Origin: Burkholderia sp. BCC0506
GTDB taxonomy: Bacteria > Pseudomonadota > Gammaproteobacteria > Burkholderiales > Burkholderiaceae
DNA: 64,000 nt
Assembly: GCF_902833145.1 (NCBI RefSeq)
Contig: NZ_CADFEN010000001.1
Coordinates: forward strand, 63,994 to 127,993
Reading direction: 5' to 3'
Each line of letters starts with the position of its first letter. Position 1 is the first letter of the stretch. Below the pieces are notes generated by a model. The model was not told the origin of the DNA. It saw only the letters and a program-made list of their open reading frames with translations, and ran no database searches. The position numbers and the translations under genes were made by a program. Positions 58,730 to 63,999 of the stretch are shown here, one piece after another.

Positions 58730-59241
58730 GACCGGCACCTTTCGCACGGCTCGCGGTATCCCGTCGGCATCGACTCACCGCTTCACCGCCGACCGGACAG
58801 CCGCTCATCGCCTACGGAAGCCGGGCAAGCCACCGCCCGATTCATTGGACAAACGAAGCGTCCGCGCCGCTGACGATGCGCGGCCGTTGGACTTCGATGC
58901 GGGGGCTGTACTGCGCGAGGCCATCGCATGCGGTAGCGCGCAGGCACCGCGCGGCGACAATCCTCAGACGTGTGTCACGGTCGAGCGGCTTCGTGATCGA
59001 ATCCGGAATTTGTCTAGTCATCCTTGAGATTCGGCCACTCGAATTGCACCAGAAATGTGCCGGAATTCCCCGTAACGACGCGCGCCAGGCCCCTGAAATT
59101 AGGGGATTTCCCGCGTTTACCCCGTTTTTATTGATCACCGCTTGTCGCGCTGTTTTTCTTCTTGCATGCTTGTATAGACAAATTCCTGAGGCGGCTTGCT
59201 GCACCGAAGGGATGGCGAACTTCAACGCAAGGAGAACTCTC
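58730..59241. promoter_or_regulatory. Upstream region of the amino acid ABC operon
   Basis: 512 bases. The last 250 are AT-richer (59030-59210) and likely carry the operon promoter. No clear operator or riboswitch was recognised. Confidence 0.4.
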
Positions 59242-60102
59242 GTGAACGGCAAGCGCATCAAGTGGGCAATCAGGACGATCGGCGTCATCGCGGCTGCGGC
59301 GGCAACGCTCGCGGCGCCGGTACAGGCCAAGGAATGGAAGACGGTGACGGTCGCGCTCGAAGGCGGCTACGCGCCGTGGAACCTCACGCTGCCGGGCGGC
59401 AAGCTGGGCGGTTTCGAACCGGAGCTGCTCGCCAACGTGTGCGAGCGGATCAAGGTGCAGTGCAATATGGTCGCGCAGGATTGGGACGGAATGATTCCCG
59501 GCCTGCAGGCCGGCAAGTTCGATGTCCTGATGGATGCGATTTCCATCACGCCGGAGCGCGAAAAGGTCCTGCTGTTCTCGCGTCCGTATGCGGCGACGCC
59601 GGCGACGTTCGCCGTCACCGATACGAAGATCCTGCCGAAGGCCGCGCCCGGCGCACCGATCGTCAAGCTGACCGGTGACGCCAACGCGGACAAGCCGACC
59701 GTCGACACGCTGCGCAAGCAGCTGAAGGGCAAGACGATCGGCATCCAGTCGGGCACCGTCTACACGAAATTCATCAACGACAGCTTCAAGGACATTGCGT
59801 CGATTCGCGTGTACAAGACGTCGCCCGAACGCGATCTCGATCTGGTCGCCGGGCGCATCGACGCCTCGTTCGACGACGTGACGTACTACGCGGCGAACAA
59901 CGCGAAGAAGGAAAACGCATCGATCGTGCTCGCGGGGCCGAAGCTCGGCGGCCCGATCTGGGGGCCGGGCGAGGGGCTCGCGTTCCGCAAGCAGGACGCC
60001 GACCTGAAGACGAAGTTCGACACGGCGATCGCCGCGGCGCTCGCGGACGGCACCGTGAAGAAGCTCGCCGACAAGTGGTTCAAGACCGACGTGACGCCGT
60101 AA
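59242..60102 (+). CDS. Polar amino acid ABC transporter, periplasmic binding protein (HisJ/ArtJ type)
   Basis: 286 residues. A signal peptide ends near PVQAKE (about residue 25); the mature part is a family 3 solute-binding protein (ALEGGYAPWNL, GFEPELLANVCERI, DGMIPGLQAGKFDVLMDAI). It has more variation than HisJ/ArgT in ligand loops. Start GTG at 59242 is chosen for its GGAG at seven bases; an ATG at 59212 is in frame but lacks a ribosome site. First gene of an operon with two permeases, an ATPase and a HAL-like protein. The ligand is unknown. Confidence 0.9.
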   Translation: MNGKRIKWAIRTIGVIAAAAATLAAPVQAKEWKTVTVALEGGYAPWNLTLPGGKLGGFEPELLANVCERIKVQCNMVAQDWDGMIPGLQAGKFDVLMDAISITPEREKVLLFSRPYAATPATFAVTDTKILPKAAPGAPIVKLTGDANADKPTVDTLRKQLKGKTIGIQSGTVYTKFINDSFKDIASIRVYKTSPERDLDLVAGRIDASFDDVTYYAANNAKKENASIVLAGPKLGGPIWGPGEGLAFRKQDADLKTKFDTAIAAALADGTVKKLADKWFKTDVTP

Positions 60103-60194: not shown

Positions 60195-60917
60195 ATGGCG
60201 ATTCTTGAAATGCTCGGTTTCGGTACCGAAGGCTGGGGCGGCGTGCTGCTGCTCGCCGCACTGATGACGGTCGCGCTGACGCTCGCCGCGCTCGCGGTCG
60301 GCGCCGTGATCGGCGCGGCGATCGCGGCGGCGAAGCTGTCGCGCTACCGCAGCCTCCGCCTGCTCGGCGATCTGTATACGACGGTATTTCGCGGCGTGCC
60401 CGAGCTGCTCGTCATCTATCTGTTCTACTTCGGCGGCTCGACACTCGTGACGGCCGTCGGCCAGTGGTTCGGCGCGGAAGGCTTCATCGGCGTGCCGCCG
60501 TTCGTGATCGGTGCGCTCGCGGTCGGGATGATCTCGGGCGCCTATCAGGCGGAGGTCTATCGCGCGGCGGTGCTCGCGGTGTCGAAAGGCGAGCTCGAAG
60601 CGGCGCGCTCGATCGGCATGCCGCGCAGCATGGTGCTGCGGCGCATCCTGGTTCCGCAGGTGCTGCGCTTTGCGCTGCCCGGTATCGGCAACGTGTGGCA
60701 ACTGAGCCTGAAGGATTCCGCACTGATCTCGGTCACCGGTCTTGCCGAGTTGCTCCGCACGAGCCAGATCGCCGCGAATTCGACGCACCAGTACTTCGTG
60801 TTCTTCGTCGCGGGCGGTGCGCTGTATCTGCTGATGACGGGCTTGTCGAACCGCGTGTTCAACCGCGCGGAAGCGATCGTCGGCCGCTCGTTCCGCCGCA
60901 ATTTCGCGCGCAACTGA
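60195..60917 (+). CDS. Polar amino acid ABC transporter permease 1 (HisQ type)
   Basis: 240 residues, five membrane segments, with the FRGVPELLVIYL start of the HisMQ domain and the coupling-helix EAA motif ELEAARSIGMPRSMVLRRI. ATG at 60195 follows GGGAGGC. Confidence 0.93.
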   Translation: MAILEMLGFGTEGWGGVLLLAALMTVALTLAALAVGAVIGAAIAAAKLSRYRSLRLLGDLYTTVFRGVPELLVIYLFYFGGSTLVTAVGQWFGAEGFIGVPPFVIGALAVGMISGAYQAEVYRAAVLAVSKGELEAARSIGMPRSMVLRRILVPQVLRFALPGIGNVWQLSLKDSALISVTGLAELLRTSQIAANSTHQYFVFFVAGGALYLLMTGLSNRVFNRAEAIVGRSFRRNFARN

Positions 60918-60929
60918 CGGAGAACGGGC

Positions 60930-61679
60930 ATGTCCATCGATTTCGCTTTTCTCGTCGACACGCTGCGCCAGCTGCTCGCGGCCGTGCCGACCACGCTCGG
61001 CCTGTTCTTCGCCTCGCTCGTGCTCGGCGGCCTGCTGTCGCTCGTGATCGTCACGATGCGCGTGTCGCCGCACTGGCTGCCGAACCGCTTCGCGCGTGCG
61101 TACATCCTGGTATTTCGCGGCTCGCCGCTGCTGATCCAGATGTTCCTCGTGTATTACGGGCTCGGTCAGTTCGGCGTGATCCGCGAGAGCTTCATGTGGC
61201 CGCTGCTGCGCGAGCCGTACGTCTGCGCGGTGTTGTCGCTCGCGCTGTGCACGGCGGGCTACACGGCCGAGATCGTGCGCGGCGGGTTGATGGCCGTGCC
61301 GGTCGGGCAGATCGAGGCCGGCTATTCCATCGGCTTGTCGGGCTTTGCGCTGCTGCGGCGCGTGATCGGCCCGATCGCGTTGCGCCAGTGTCTGCCCGCG
61401 TATTCGACCGAGGCCGTGCTGCTCGTCAAGTCGACCGCGCTCGCGAGCCTCGTCACGGTGTGGGAAGTGACGGGCGTCGCGCAGCAGATCATCCAGCAGA
61501 CCTACCGGACGACCGAAGTGTTCGTCTGCGCGGCCGTCATCTATCTGGGCCTGAACTTCATCGTCGTGCGCCTGCTCGGCGCGCTCGAATGGCGGCTCTC
61601 GGCGCACCTGCGTGCGCCGAAGCCGTCGTCCGGTGCGTCGGCCGCGGCGACCCGCAATGCCCAGCGCGTCGCGTCCTGA
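60930..61679 (+). CDS. Polar amino acid ABC transporter permease 2 (HisM type)
   Basis: 249 residues, five membrane segments; FRGSPLLIQMFLVYYGLGQ and EAA loop QIEAGYSIGLSGFALLRRV. Forms the channel together with permease 1, 12 bases upstream. Confidence 0.93.
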   Translation: MSIDFAFLVDTLRQLLAAVPTTLGLFFASLVLGGLLSLVIVTMRVSPHWLPNRFARAYILVFRGSPLLIQMFLVYYGLGQFGVIRESFMWPLLREPYVCAVLSLALCTAGYTAEIVRGGLMAVPVGQIEAGYSIGLSGFALLRRVIGPIALRQCLPAYSTEAVLLVKSTALASLVTVWEVTGVAQQIIQQTYRTTEVFVCAAVIYLGLNFIVVRLLGALEWRLSAHLRAPKPSSGASAAATRNAQRVAS

Positions 61680-61706: not shown

Positions 61707-62498
61707 ATGAACACCGCTGCTCCCGTTGCGCTGTCGGTCAGAAACATTCACAAGTCGTTCGGCGATCACCACGTGCTGAAGGGCATTTCGCTCGACGCGC
61801 ACGAGGGCGACGTCATTTCGATTCTCGGCGCGAGCGGATCGGGCAAGAGCACGTTCCTGCGCTGCCTGAACCTGCTCGAGACACCCGACGACGGCTCCGT
61901 CGCGCTCGCCGGAGAGCAGTTGGCGATGAAGCGCGCCCGCGACGGCAAGCTGCACCCGAGCGACCGGCGCCAGGTCGACCGGATCCGCTCGCAGCTCGGG
62001 ATGGTGTTCCAGAACTTCAACCTGTGGTCGCACATGACGGTGCTCGACAACCTCGTCGAGGGGCCGCTGCGCGTGCAAAAGCGCAGCCGCGCGGAAGCGG
62101 TGGAGGAGGCCGAGGCGCTGCTGGCGCGCGTCGGCCTCGCGGACAAGCGCGGCTACTATCCGGCGCACCTGTCGGGCGGCCAGCAGCAGCGTGTCGCGAT
62201 AGCCCGCGCGCTCGCGATGCATCCGAAGGTGATGCTGTTCGACGAACCGACGTCGGCGCTCGACCCGGAACTGGTGGGCGAGGTGTTGCGCGTGATGCGC
62301 TCGCTGGCGGAGGAGGGGCGCACGATGCTGGTCGTCACGCACGAAATGGGTTTTGCGCGTCACGTGTCGAATCGCGTGATGTTCCTGCATCGGGGCGAGG
62401 TCGATACGGACGGGGCGCCCGACGAAGTCTTCGGCGGCCAGGCCTCCGAGCGCTTCCGGCAATTCGTGTCGAGCCACCACGACCGCACCGCGAACTGA
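61707..62498 (+). CDS. Polar amino acid ABC transporter ATPase (HisP type)
   Basis: 263 residues: Walker [10 protein letters not shown], signature [15 protein letters not shown], Walker [15 protein letters not shown]-loop [16 protein letters not shown]. Drives the two permeases. The HAL-like gene starts seven bases after its stop. Confidence 0.95.
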
Positions 62499-62505
62499 GG
62501 CTGCC

Positions 62506-63999
62506 ATGACCGTATTCCGTGCGGCGCAGCCGCTCGACTGGCGACAGGTTGCGGCGGTGGCGGCCGGCGAGCCGCTGGCGCTGGCCGACGAGACGCGCGC
62601 GCGCGTCGTGGCCGCTCGCGAACTCGTCGACGAGATCGTCACGCGCGGGATTCGCGCATACGGCGTCAATACCGGCGTCGGCGCGCTGTGCGACGTGATC
62701 GTGTCGCCGGCCCAGCAGAGCACGCTGTCGCACAACATCCTGATGAGTCACGCGGTGGGCGTCGGCATGCCGCTCGGCGCCGCCGAAACGCGCGCGATCA
62801 TCGCGGCCGCGATCAACAACTATGCGCACGGGCATTCGGGCGTGCGTGCCGACGTCGTCGAACAGCTCGTCGCGCTGCTCGAGCACGATTGCCTGCCCGA
62901 AGTGCCGGCGCACGGCTCGGTTGGGTACCTGACCCACATGGCGCACGTCGCGCTCGTCTGCGTCGGGCACGGCCATGCGCGCCATCGCGGCGAGCGCCTG
63001 CGCGGCGACGAGGCGCTGCGGCGCATCGGCCGCGAGCCGCTCGTGCTCGGCGCGAAGGAGGGGTTGAGCCTCGTCAACGGGACGCCGTGCGTCACGGGGC
63101 TGGCGGCGCTCGCGCTGGCCCGCGCGGAACGGCTGCTCGACTGGGCCGACTGGATCGCGGCGATGAGTTTCGAGAACCTCGGCGGGCAACTCGCCGCGTT
63201 CGATCCGGCTTCGCTCGCGCTGCGGATTTCCCCCGGTATCGAGCAGGTCGGCGCCCGTTTGCGTGCGCTGCTGGCGGACAGCGTCATGCTTGCCGCGGCG
63301 AGCGGCCGGCATACGCAGGACCCGCTCAGCCTGCGCACGATTCCGCATGTGCACGGCGCGGCGCGCGACGTGTTCGACGTCACGGCGCAGGTCGTCGATC
63401 GCGAACTCGCGTCCGTCACCGACAATCCGATCGTGGCCGGCACGCGCGACGCGCCGGCCGTGCATTCGCAGGCGCATGCGGTCGGCGCCGGCATCGCGCT
63501 CGCGATGGACAGCCTCGCGGCGGCGATGGCCCAGGTCGCGGCGATCGCCGAGCGGCGTCTCGACCGGCTCGTGAATCCGCTCGTCAGCGGGCTGCCGGCG
63601 TTTCTTGCTGCGCCCGGAGGGAGCTGTTCGGGTTTCATGATCGCGCAGTACACGGCGGTCGCGCTGGTCGCGCAGAATCAGCGGCTTGCCGCGCCGGCGA
63701 GCCTCGACGGCGGCATCACGTCGGGGCTGCAGGAAGATCACCTGTGTCATGCGACGCCGGCCGCGCTGAAAGCGCTCGACATCATCGAGAATACGACGCG
63801 CGTGCTCGCGATCGAGCTGCTGGCCGCCGCGCAGGCGTACGATCTGCAGCCGGGCGAAACGGAGCGGGCCGCATCGACCGACGCGCTGTGGCGGCATGTG
63901 CGCGAACGCGTGCCGGCGTATCACGACGACCGGCCGCTCGCGGACGATATCGCGATCGCGGCCGGCATCGTCGCCGGTGTGCCGCCTTCGTTGCAGTGA
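62506..63999 (+). CDS. HAL/PAL-family protein lacking the MIO-forming Ala-Ser-Gly
   Basis: 497 residues, full-length histidine/aromatic ammonia-lyase fold: YGVNTGVG (Tyr52), NILMSHAVGVG (His82), EGLSLVNGT (Asn191), QDPLSLR (Arg277), VTDNPIV, and GLQED (Glu410). The MIO site, normally GSVGASGDLAPLAH, reads GSVGYLTHMAH (137-147): Ala-Ser-Gly is deleted cleanly in frame. The Tyr of QDPYSLR is Leu274. Without MIO it cannot work as a normal ammonia-lyase. Coupling to an ABC transporter implies a role in using an imported amino acid-like compound, as a different enzyme or a binding protein. The frame ends with TGA one base before the window end. Confidence 0.88.
   Translation: MTVFRAAQPLDWRQVAAVAAGEPLALADETRARVVAARELVDEIVTRGIRAYGVNTGVGALCDVIVSPAQQSTLSHNILMSHAVGVGMPLGAAETRAIIAAAINNYAHGHSGVRADVVEQLVALLEHDCLPEVPAHGSVGYLTHMAHVALVCVGHGHARHRGERLRGDEALRRIGREPLVLGAKEGLSLVNGTPCVTGLAALALARAERLLDWADWIAAMSFENLGGQLAAFDPASLALRISPGIEQVGARLRALLADSVMLAAASGRHTQDPLSLRTIPHVHGAARDVFDVTAQVVDRELASVTDNPIVAGTRDAPAVHSQAHAVGAGIALAMDSLAAAMAQVAAIAERRLDRLVNPLVSGLPAFLAAPGGSCSGFMIAQYTAVALVAQNQRLAAPASLDGGITSGLQEDHLCHATPAALKALDIIENTTRVLAIELLAAAQAYDLQPGETERAASTDALWRHVRERVPAYHDDRPLADDIAIAAGIVAGVPPSLQ

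Follow-up and report, generated by a model that had tools for sequence, protein, structure and literature searches.

A MIO-less histidase relative encoded beside an ABC importer in Burkholderia, a predicted hercynine trimethylamine-lyase

Introduction

In histidase the MIO electrophile is required for the free amine of histidine to leave. Which reaction is open to a family member that has lost the Ala-Ser-Gly of the MIO loop as well as the catalytic tyrosine, and that is encoded directly behind an ABC importer? The window analysed here, a stretch of 64,000 nucleotides from Burkholderia sp. BCC0506 (contig NZ_CADFEN010000001.1, positions 63,994 to 127,993), carries such a gene at its end. The initial annotation of this locus considered an undescribed enzyme class or a protein that merely binds the imported compound.

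Results

The gene at 62506..63999 (+ strand) is, as first described, an intact open reading frame for a HAL/PAL relative of 497 amino acids. Its product matches PF00221 with 498.2 bits and is predicted to adopt the histidase fold (pLDDT of 92.4), although this fold comparison does not tell histidase and ergothionase apart. Set against the histidase loop GSVG-ASG-DLAPLAH, the window lyase reads GSVG (residues 137-140) followed by YLTHMAH (141-147), encoded at 62914..62946 (+), and the reported loss of exactly Ala-Ser-Gly together with the exchanges Asp to Tyr, Ala to Thr and Pro to His is thereby confirmed as a clean three-residue deletion. The catalytic tyrosine is replaced by Leu274 (codon at 63325..63327, +; QDPLSLR), and Tyr52, His82, Asn191, Arg277 and Glu410 are present, again in line with the initial annotation. 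Public records label members of the clade as histidase (hutH), despite the fact that both hallmarks of histidase catalysis are missing; against the NCBIfam HutH model TIGR01225 the window lyase scores 445.5 bits, below the equivalog cut-off of 539.15.

From the loci collected we gathered 153 distinct family sequences, and the 88 best matches to the window lyase are referred to as the clade; neither these 88 sequences nor the 52 loci discussed below are independent samples, since close relatives are among them. The deletion, Tyr141, His144 and Leu274 occur in 88/88 clade sequences, as do Tyr52, His82 and Arg277, while Asn191, Met378, Tyr382 and Glu410 are found in 87/88, one row being gapped at the last three. 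In the MIO-bearing rows, in contrast, position 274 is Tyr and position 144 is Pro throughout (54/54). The residues that are invariant and specific to the clade include Tyr141, His144 and Gln228. A first tree was calculated from 80 of the 153 sequences, chosen to be less than 80% identical and no shorter than 400 amino acids, and a second one from 66 rows drawn from those 80 plus 8 Pseudomonas rows, in both cases with the loop columns removed. The clade was recovered with an SH-aLRT of 100 in the former (33 rows) and with a bootstrap/SH-aLRT of 100/99 when the Pseudomonas rows were included (39 rows). The tree requires two or more switches between rows with and without MIO, and its deep forks are weak.

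A window-type lyase at 75% identity or more is encoded in 36 of 65 Burkholderia genomes, the own genome included, and the dN/dS of the window lyase to five orthologues is 0.09-0.25. We also searched 59 Pseudomonas genomes (the genus of locus L096) with the MIO-less lyase P0019; 44 gave a match of at least 355 bits, and the best 30 of these 44 by score were read. In each of these 30 loci the lyase combines the loop GSVGYLTHMAH with QDALS[ILV]R. An origin by sequencing error or by gene decay, the two outcomes that the initial annotation had named as refuting it, has only the two missing hallmark features in its favour and was rejected, with a negligible probability: the deletion and Leu274 are conserved in 88/88 clade sequences and in 30/30 Pseudomonas loci (best 30 of 44), the dN/dS values are low, and the cassette described next is conserved in differing surroundings. 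The earlier view is supported in so far as the protein is intact, selected and conserved, is unable to act by the MIO mechanism and is linked to an importer.

Four ABC genes lie upstream of the lyase gene on the same strand, and the gap between the ATPase and lyase genes is seven bases. They encode a solute-binding protein of family 3 (59242..60102, +; PF00497 118.8 bits; a GTG start is assumed, with an in-frame ATG at 59212), a HisQ-like permease (60195..60917, +; PF00528 61.1 bits; below the HisQ cut-off), an ArtM/HisM-like permease (60930..61679, +; PF00528 54.4 bits; below the cut-offs) and a HisP-like ATPase (61707..62498, +; PF00005 121.3 bits; HisP 360 bits, cut-off 466). The ABC set is thus complete, as had been claimed, but a fixed amino acid importer does not hold for the clade as a whole, since its members are accompanied by ABC systems of family 3 (SBP_bac_3) or of the OpuAC (glycine betaine) type, or else by a BCCT carrier. 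In the PDB the binding protein matches nopaline- and octopine-binding proteins best (207-209.5 bits), compared to 100.9 bits for the histidine-binding protein. Just beyond the window end lies a gene for a HutC-type regulator (L009:8101-8799; TIGR02018 283.7 bits, cut-off 220), which shares 50% identity with its HutC-like counterpart in the own genome's hut operon. Also beyond the window end, L009:9168-10517 encodes a reverse transcriptase (PF00078 64 bits) that resembles retron-type families weakly, scoring under their cut-offs. In other Burkholderiaceae the cassette genes stay together in differing surroundings, and in two Burkholderia genomes (G050 and G057) an extra HutU adjoins the cassette (TIGR01228 955 bits in G057, cut-off 375). 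The own genome has a single urocanase, located in the hut operon (L057).

The cassette promoter contains the palindrome TTGTATAGACAA (59170..59181, no strand assigned), a candidate HutC-like operator in common with the own genome's hut promoter, where the variants TTGTCTAGACAA and TTGTCTAGACAG are found. It differs by one mismatch from the HutC site TGTA-N2-TACA given in PMC12977541; urocanate is named as the HutC effector in PMC12977541 and PMC4349456. As the search pattern was derived from the cassette and hut sites, three hits are expected by construction and the test lies in its rarity and in any fourth site. The whole genome holds the pattern in four places, namely these three and one in front of a ProY-type permease gene (637.8 bits, below the cut-off of 736), whereas the reversed control pattern occurs in no place of the whole genome; the chance expectation for the window is 0.04. 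Among 27 Burkholderiaceae loci, 26 have the site within 300 bp of the aligned binding protein start, and in the 27th (L043) it was seen in a separate pattern scan; the operator of the L042 cassette is TTGTATATACAA. Outside Burkholderiaceae the pattern is absent from most loci, being present in L032, L114 and L115 and as a variant in L092. By its HutC-type candidate operator, the cassette is a predicted member of the HutC regulon. A regulon study (PMC5343134) notes multiple HutH paralogues and lists HisJMPQ in Burkholderia HutC regulons as histidine uptake.

A scan of named genomes returned at least 80 loci, and the matches listed comprise 52 of the clade and a further 28 relatives with 38-44% identity. 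Among the 52 listed clade loci, HutC is encoded in 39, any hut enzyme in 19 (HutU in 15) and either HutC or hut enzymes in 41; a family 3 binding protein is found in 24, OpuAC in 12, and 8 loci encode a SolA-like N-methyl amino acid oxidase. In none of these 52 listed loci was a gene found for thiourocanate hydratase, thiohydantoin desulfurase, ErtD or ErtE. Neither HutC nor hut enzymes were seen in 11/52 listed loci (L091, L096, L107, L110, L112, L116, L118, L119, L120, L121 and L130), of which L107 and L121 have little flank, L119 has HutD only and L130 has a BCCT gene. In the locus L141 the gene order is hutF-OpuAC-ProW-ProV-lyase-hutI-hutH-hutG-hutU-hutD, and in L127, L128 and L131 (the latter from Aureimonas) the lyase lies within a hut cluster whose 21 kb locus does not encode HutH. 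A BCCT betaine carrier is encoded directly 5' of the lyase in Salinicola (L128) and Halomonas (L130). A canonical QDPY-type histidase is present in 6/7 clade genomes searched, and therefore the lyase is no genome-wide replacement for HutH; in the Salinicola genome G122, whose completeness is not given, only a MIO lyase of the GDLTPLSY type was seen. The same Salinicola hut cluster that holds the MIO-less lyase also encodes a distant ergothionase-like lyase (L128:13996-15483; loop GSLGAA-DLAQLAQ; 32% identity), and two plasmid loci outside the 52 (L032 and L061) encode a distant ErtE-like hydrolase at 36-37% identity.

In Pseudomonas the clade fills the hutH1 position of the hut operons, as assigned by gene order; in L223, for example, the order is hutC-hutD-hutU-cytosine/purine-type permease-OpuAC-ProW-ProV-lyase-hutH-hutI-hutG. 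A canonical HutH is also present in 22/30 of these loci (best 30 of 44), and hutH1 is reported in PMC8871633 to be dispensable on histidine. That report, the loss of both MIO and the catalytic tyrosine, and the histidine genes that are always near where context was found would agree with a protein that binds histidine or urocanate non-catalytically, as a sensor or chaperone, or that deaminates histidine MIO-free. We regard such a role as quite unlikely: the pocket residues are conserved, Tyr141, His144 and Gln228 are among the clade-specific invariant residues, and because an intact canonical HutH adjoins the lyase in many loci, a second histidase would be redundant. The mere ligand-binding role first suggested is also made less likely by the hut clusters L127, L128 and L131, with their lack of HutH in the same 21 kb.

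Ergothionase, which according to PMC13405746 also works without MIO, was our first guess and was dropped once the ert-linked clade proved to be a separate one. A second, divergent urocanase (270-273 bits) is encoded in 14/65 Burkholderia genomes, and exactly the same 14 genomes carry, about 3 kb from it, a lyase that is likewise divergent (394-401 bits). This urocanase beside the ergothionase-type lyase is of the thiourocanate hydratase type. Six of the 14 ert-type loci were examined in detail, and in all six, thiourocanate hydratase, thiohydantoin desulfurase, ErtD and ErtE each have a match; in L063 all four proteins score above the NCBIfam cut-offs. The L063 lyase matches the ergothionase 6s7j with 269.6 bits and the best histidase with 168.8 bits, and its loop, GSIGEADIT, falls one residue short of the histidase loop. 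A 46-residue loop query from the window protein did not list 6s7j among its matches; ergothionase-type residues are read from the ert-linked Burkholderia lyases and from the alignment of one of them with 6s7j. Ergothionase-type rows have Lys at position 382 in 7/7 cases, which we take to be catalytic, and in 7/7 they share Leu at 274 with the window clade.

Could the window lyase be an enzyme of this type, acting on ergothioneine, its sulfonate or its S-methyl form? The common absence of MIO and the shared Leu are compatible with this idea. However, the window lyase matches 6s7j with 173 bits and histidases with up to 286 bits, the reverse of the ert-linked lyase; its loop differs, it has Tyr382 instead of Lys, ert genes accompany it in 0/52 of the listed loci, and six Burkholderia genomes (G012, G039, G041, G043, G054 and G064) carry both types. 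We therefore consider an ergothionase-type function very improbable. MIO-less chemistry is already known in the family, with ergothionase in the PDB (6s7j/6s7q), and the notion that a member without MIO is as such a new class does not stand; on the sequence comparisons and gene context above, the clade is nonetheless assigned as distinct from ergothionase.

The six ert-linked loci L063-L068 (genomes G041, G043, G024, G005, G064 and G016) each hold a complete ergothioneine utilisation cluster, in which the lyase has a signal-peptide-like start (judged by eye) and adjoins a porin-like gene; these two features suggest a periplasmic ergothionase. NCBIfam models exist for S-methyl thiourocanate hydratase and S-methyl thiohydantoin desulfurase, which indicates that related pathways are currently being described by others. 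A further MIO-less clade (L045:5710-7245, L058:7863-9395 and L131:18710-20209) has the loop GSVGYLIAT[AS]H, Leu at 274 and OsmF-like importers. In L045 its gene is adjoined by a 3-hydroxyacyl-CoA dehydrogenase gene and, by eye, CoA-type genes, and in Klebsiella plasmids it lies among hut genes; this clade is possibly another amino acid betaine lyase. The lyase at L048:7410-8978, with Rieske oxygenase genes and a paralogous family 3 importer as neighbours, combines the shortened loop GSVGYLGPEAH with a retained catalytic tyrosine.

Discussion

HutC, the hut enzymes and the shared operator narrow the chemistry to the formation of urocanate from a histidine derivative, and the product most likely passes to HutU. 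Judged from the alignment, the clade is a group with a histidase-type pocket for an unmodified imidazole, lacking Lys382. The compound that fits is hercynine (N-alpha-trimethyl-L-histidine, histidine betaine). We hypothesize, with a probability of roughly 0.6, that the clade is a hercynine trimethylamine-lyase producing urocanate. The ABC importer would take up hercynine, and the lyase would hold it as histidase holds histidine, with the carboxylate near Arg277/Tyr52 and the imidazole near His82, Met378 and Glu410. Abstraction of the beta proton would release trimethylamine and leave urocanate, which would enter the hut pathway via HutU and lift HutC repression at both the cassette and the hut operon. 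MIO would be unnecessary because the trimethylammonium group is itself already a leaving group. Substrate, products, catalytic residues and the inducer of the cassette are thus what we infer.

Several lines of evidence argue for hercynine: the deletion and Leu274 in 88/88 sequences with histidase pocket residues kept in 87-88/88; HutC or hut enzymes in 41/52 and ert genes in 0/52 of the listed loci; the lyase within the hut clusters L141, L127, L131 and L128, and the extra HutU in G050 and G057; the own genome's one urocanase in its hut operon and the rare operator common to cassette and hut; transporters of the quaternary amine type (OpuAC, and BCCT in L128 and L130); the SolA-like oxidase in 8/52 listed loci; and the membership of the Pseudomonas hutH1-position lyase in the clade. 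Ergothionase provides the MIO-less precedent, with trimethylamine as the leaving group, taken from ergothioneine. Against hercynine stand the 11/52 listed loci with neither HutC nor hut enzymes, the few loci outside Burkholderiaceae with the operator pattern (L032, L114, L115 and the L092 variant), and the nearest solved relatives of the Burkholderia binding protein family, which bind opines and not betaines.

The latter similarity, as well as the SolA-like oxidase encoded next to the lyase in 8/52 listed loci, could point to a histidine substituted differently at N-alpha (mono- or dimethylhistidine, or an opine of histidine, for example histopine) that is split into an amine and urocanate. 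A secondary amine is a poor leaving group in the absence of MIO, however, and the OpuAC and BCCT partners indicate a quaternary amine, so that we consider such a substrate unlikely. The S. meliloti HutXWV system also transports betaines. Since the OpuAC-type HutXWV is described in PMC8871633 as taking part in histidine uptake, the OpuAC partners of the clade are weaker evidence for a betaine, and no proof of one.

We found no description of a lyase converting hercynine to urocanate in the open literature searched. The own genome also encodes a methyltransferase of PF10017 (G000:C12:9193-10110, L184; 391.8 bits), presumably the family of the hercynine-making enzyme EgtD, and may thus make hercynine itself. 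Slightly better than even, in our estimate, are the chances of the wider proposal of a widespread hut branch, in which a MIO-less HutH1-type lyase would convert hercynine to urocanate and trimethylamine, and HutXWV or its replacements would import hercynine. If true, histidine catabolism would have a second entry, hidden in databases as a duplicate histidase, which would account for HutH1 being unneeded for growth on histidine. It would likewise provide a degradation route for hercynine, a further bacterial source of trimethylamine and, next to ergothionase, a second branch that does without MIO in a textbook family.

Comparison with known systems

Histidine ammonia-lyase (HutH) has Ala-Ser-Gly and the catalytic tyrosine in QDPYSLR, whereas the window lyase has neither and does not reach the equivalog cut-off for HutH. 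Ergothionase (Treponema denticola 6s7j; Burkholderia sp. HME13) and the window lyase are alike in having no MIO, but they belong to different clades. The loop is shortened by one residue in ergothionase and by three in the window clade, and ergothionase has Lys at 382 and an ert gene context as opposed to Tyr382 and no ert genes nearby; by score, the closest solved relative of the window lyase is a histidase and not 6s7j. Pseudomonas HutH1, the “second histidase”, falls into the same clade as the window lyase (100/99), where the named SBW25 HutH1 is equated with the clade by gene order and not by its sequence. The Pseudomonas lyases at this position are 50-53% identical to the window protein and share its loop and Leu (30/30 loci, best 30 of 44). 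In L222-L226 an importer and hut genes lie alongside; the importer is of the OpuAC type in L222-L225, compared to family 3 in the window, and L226 has parts of both.
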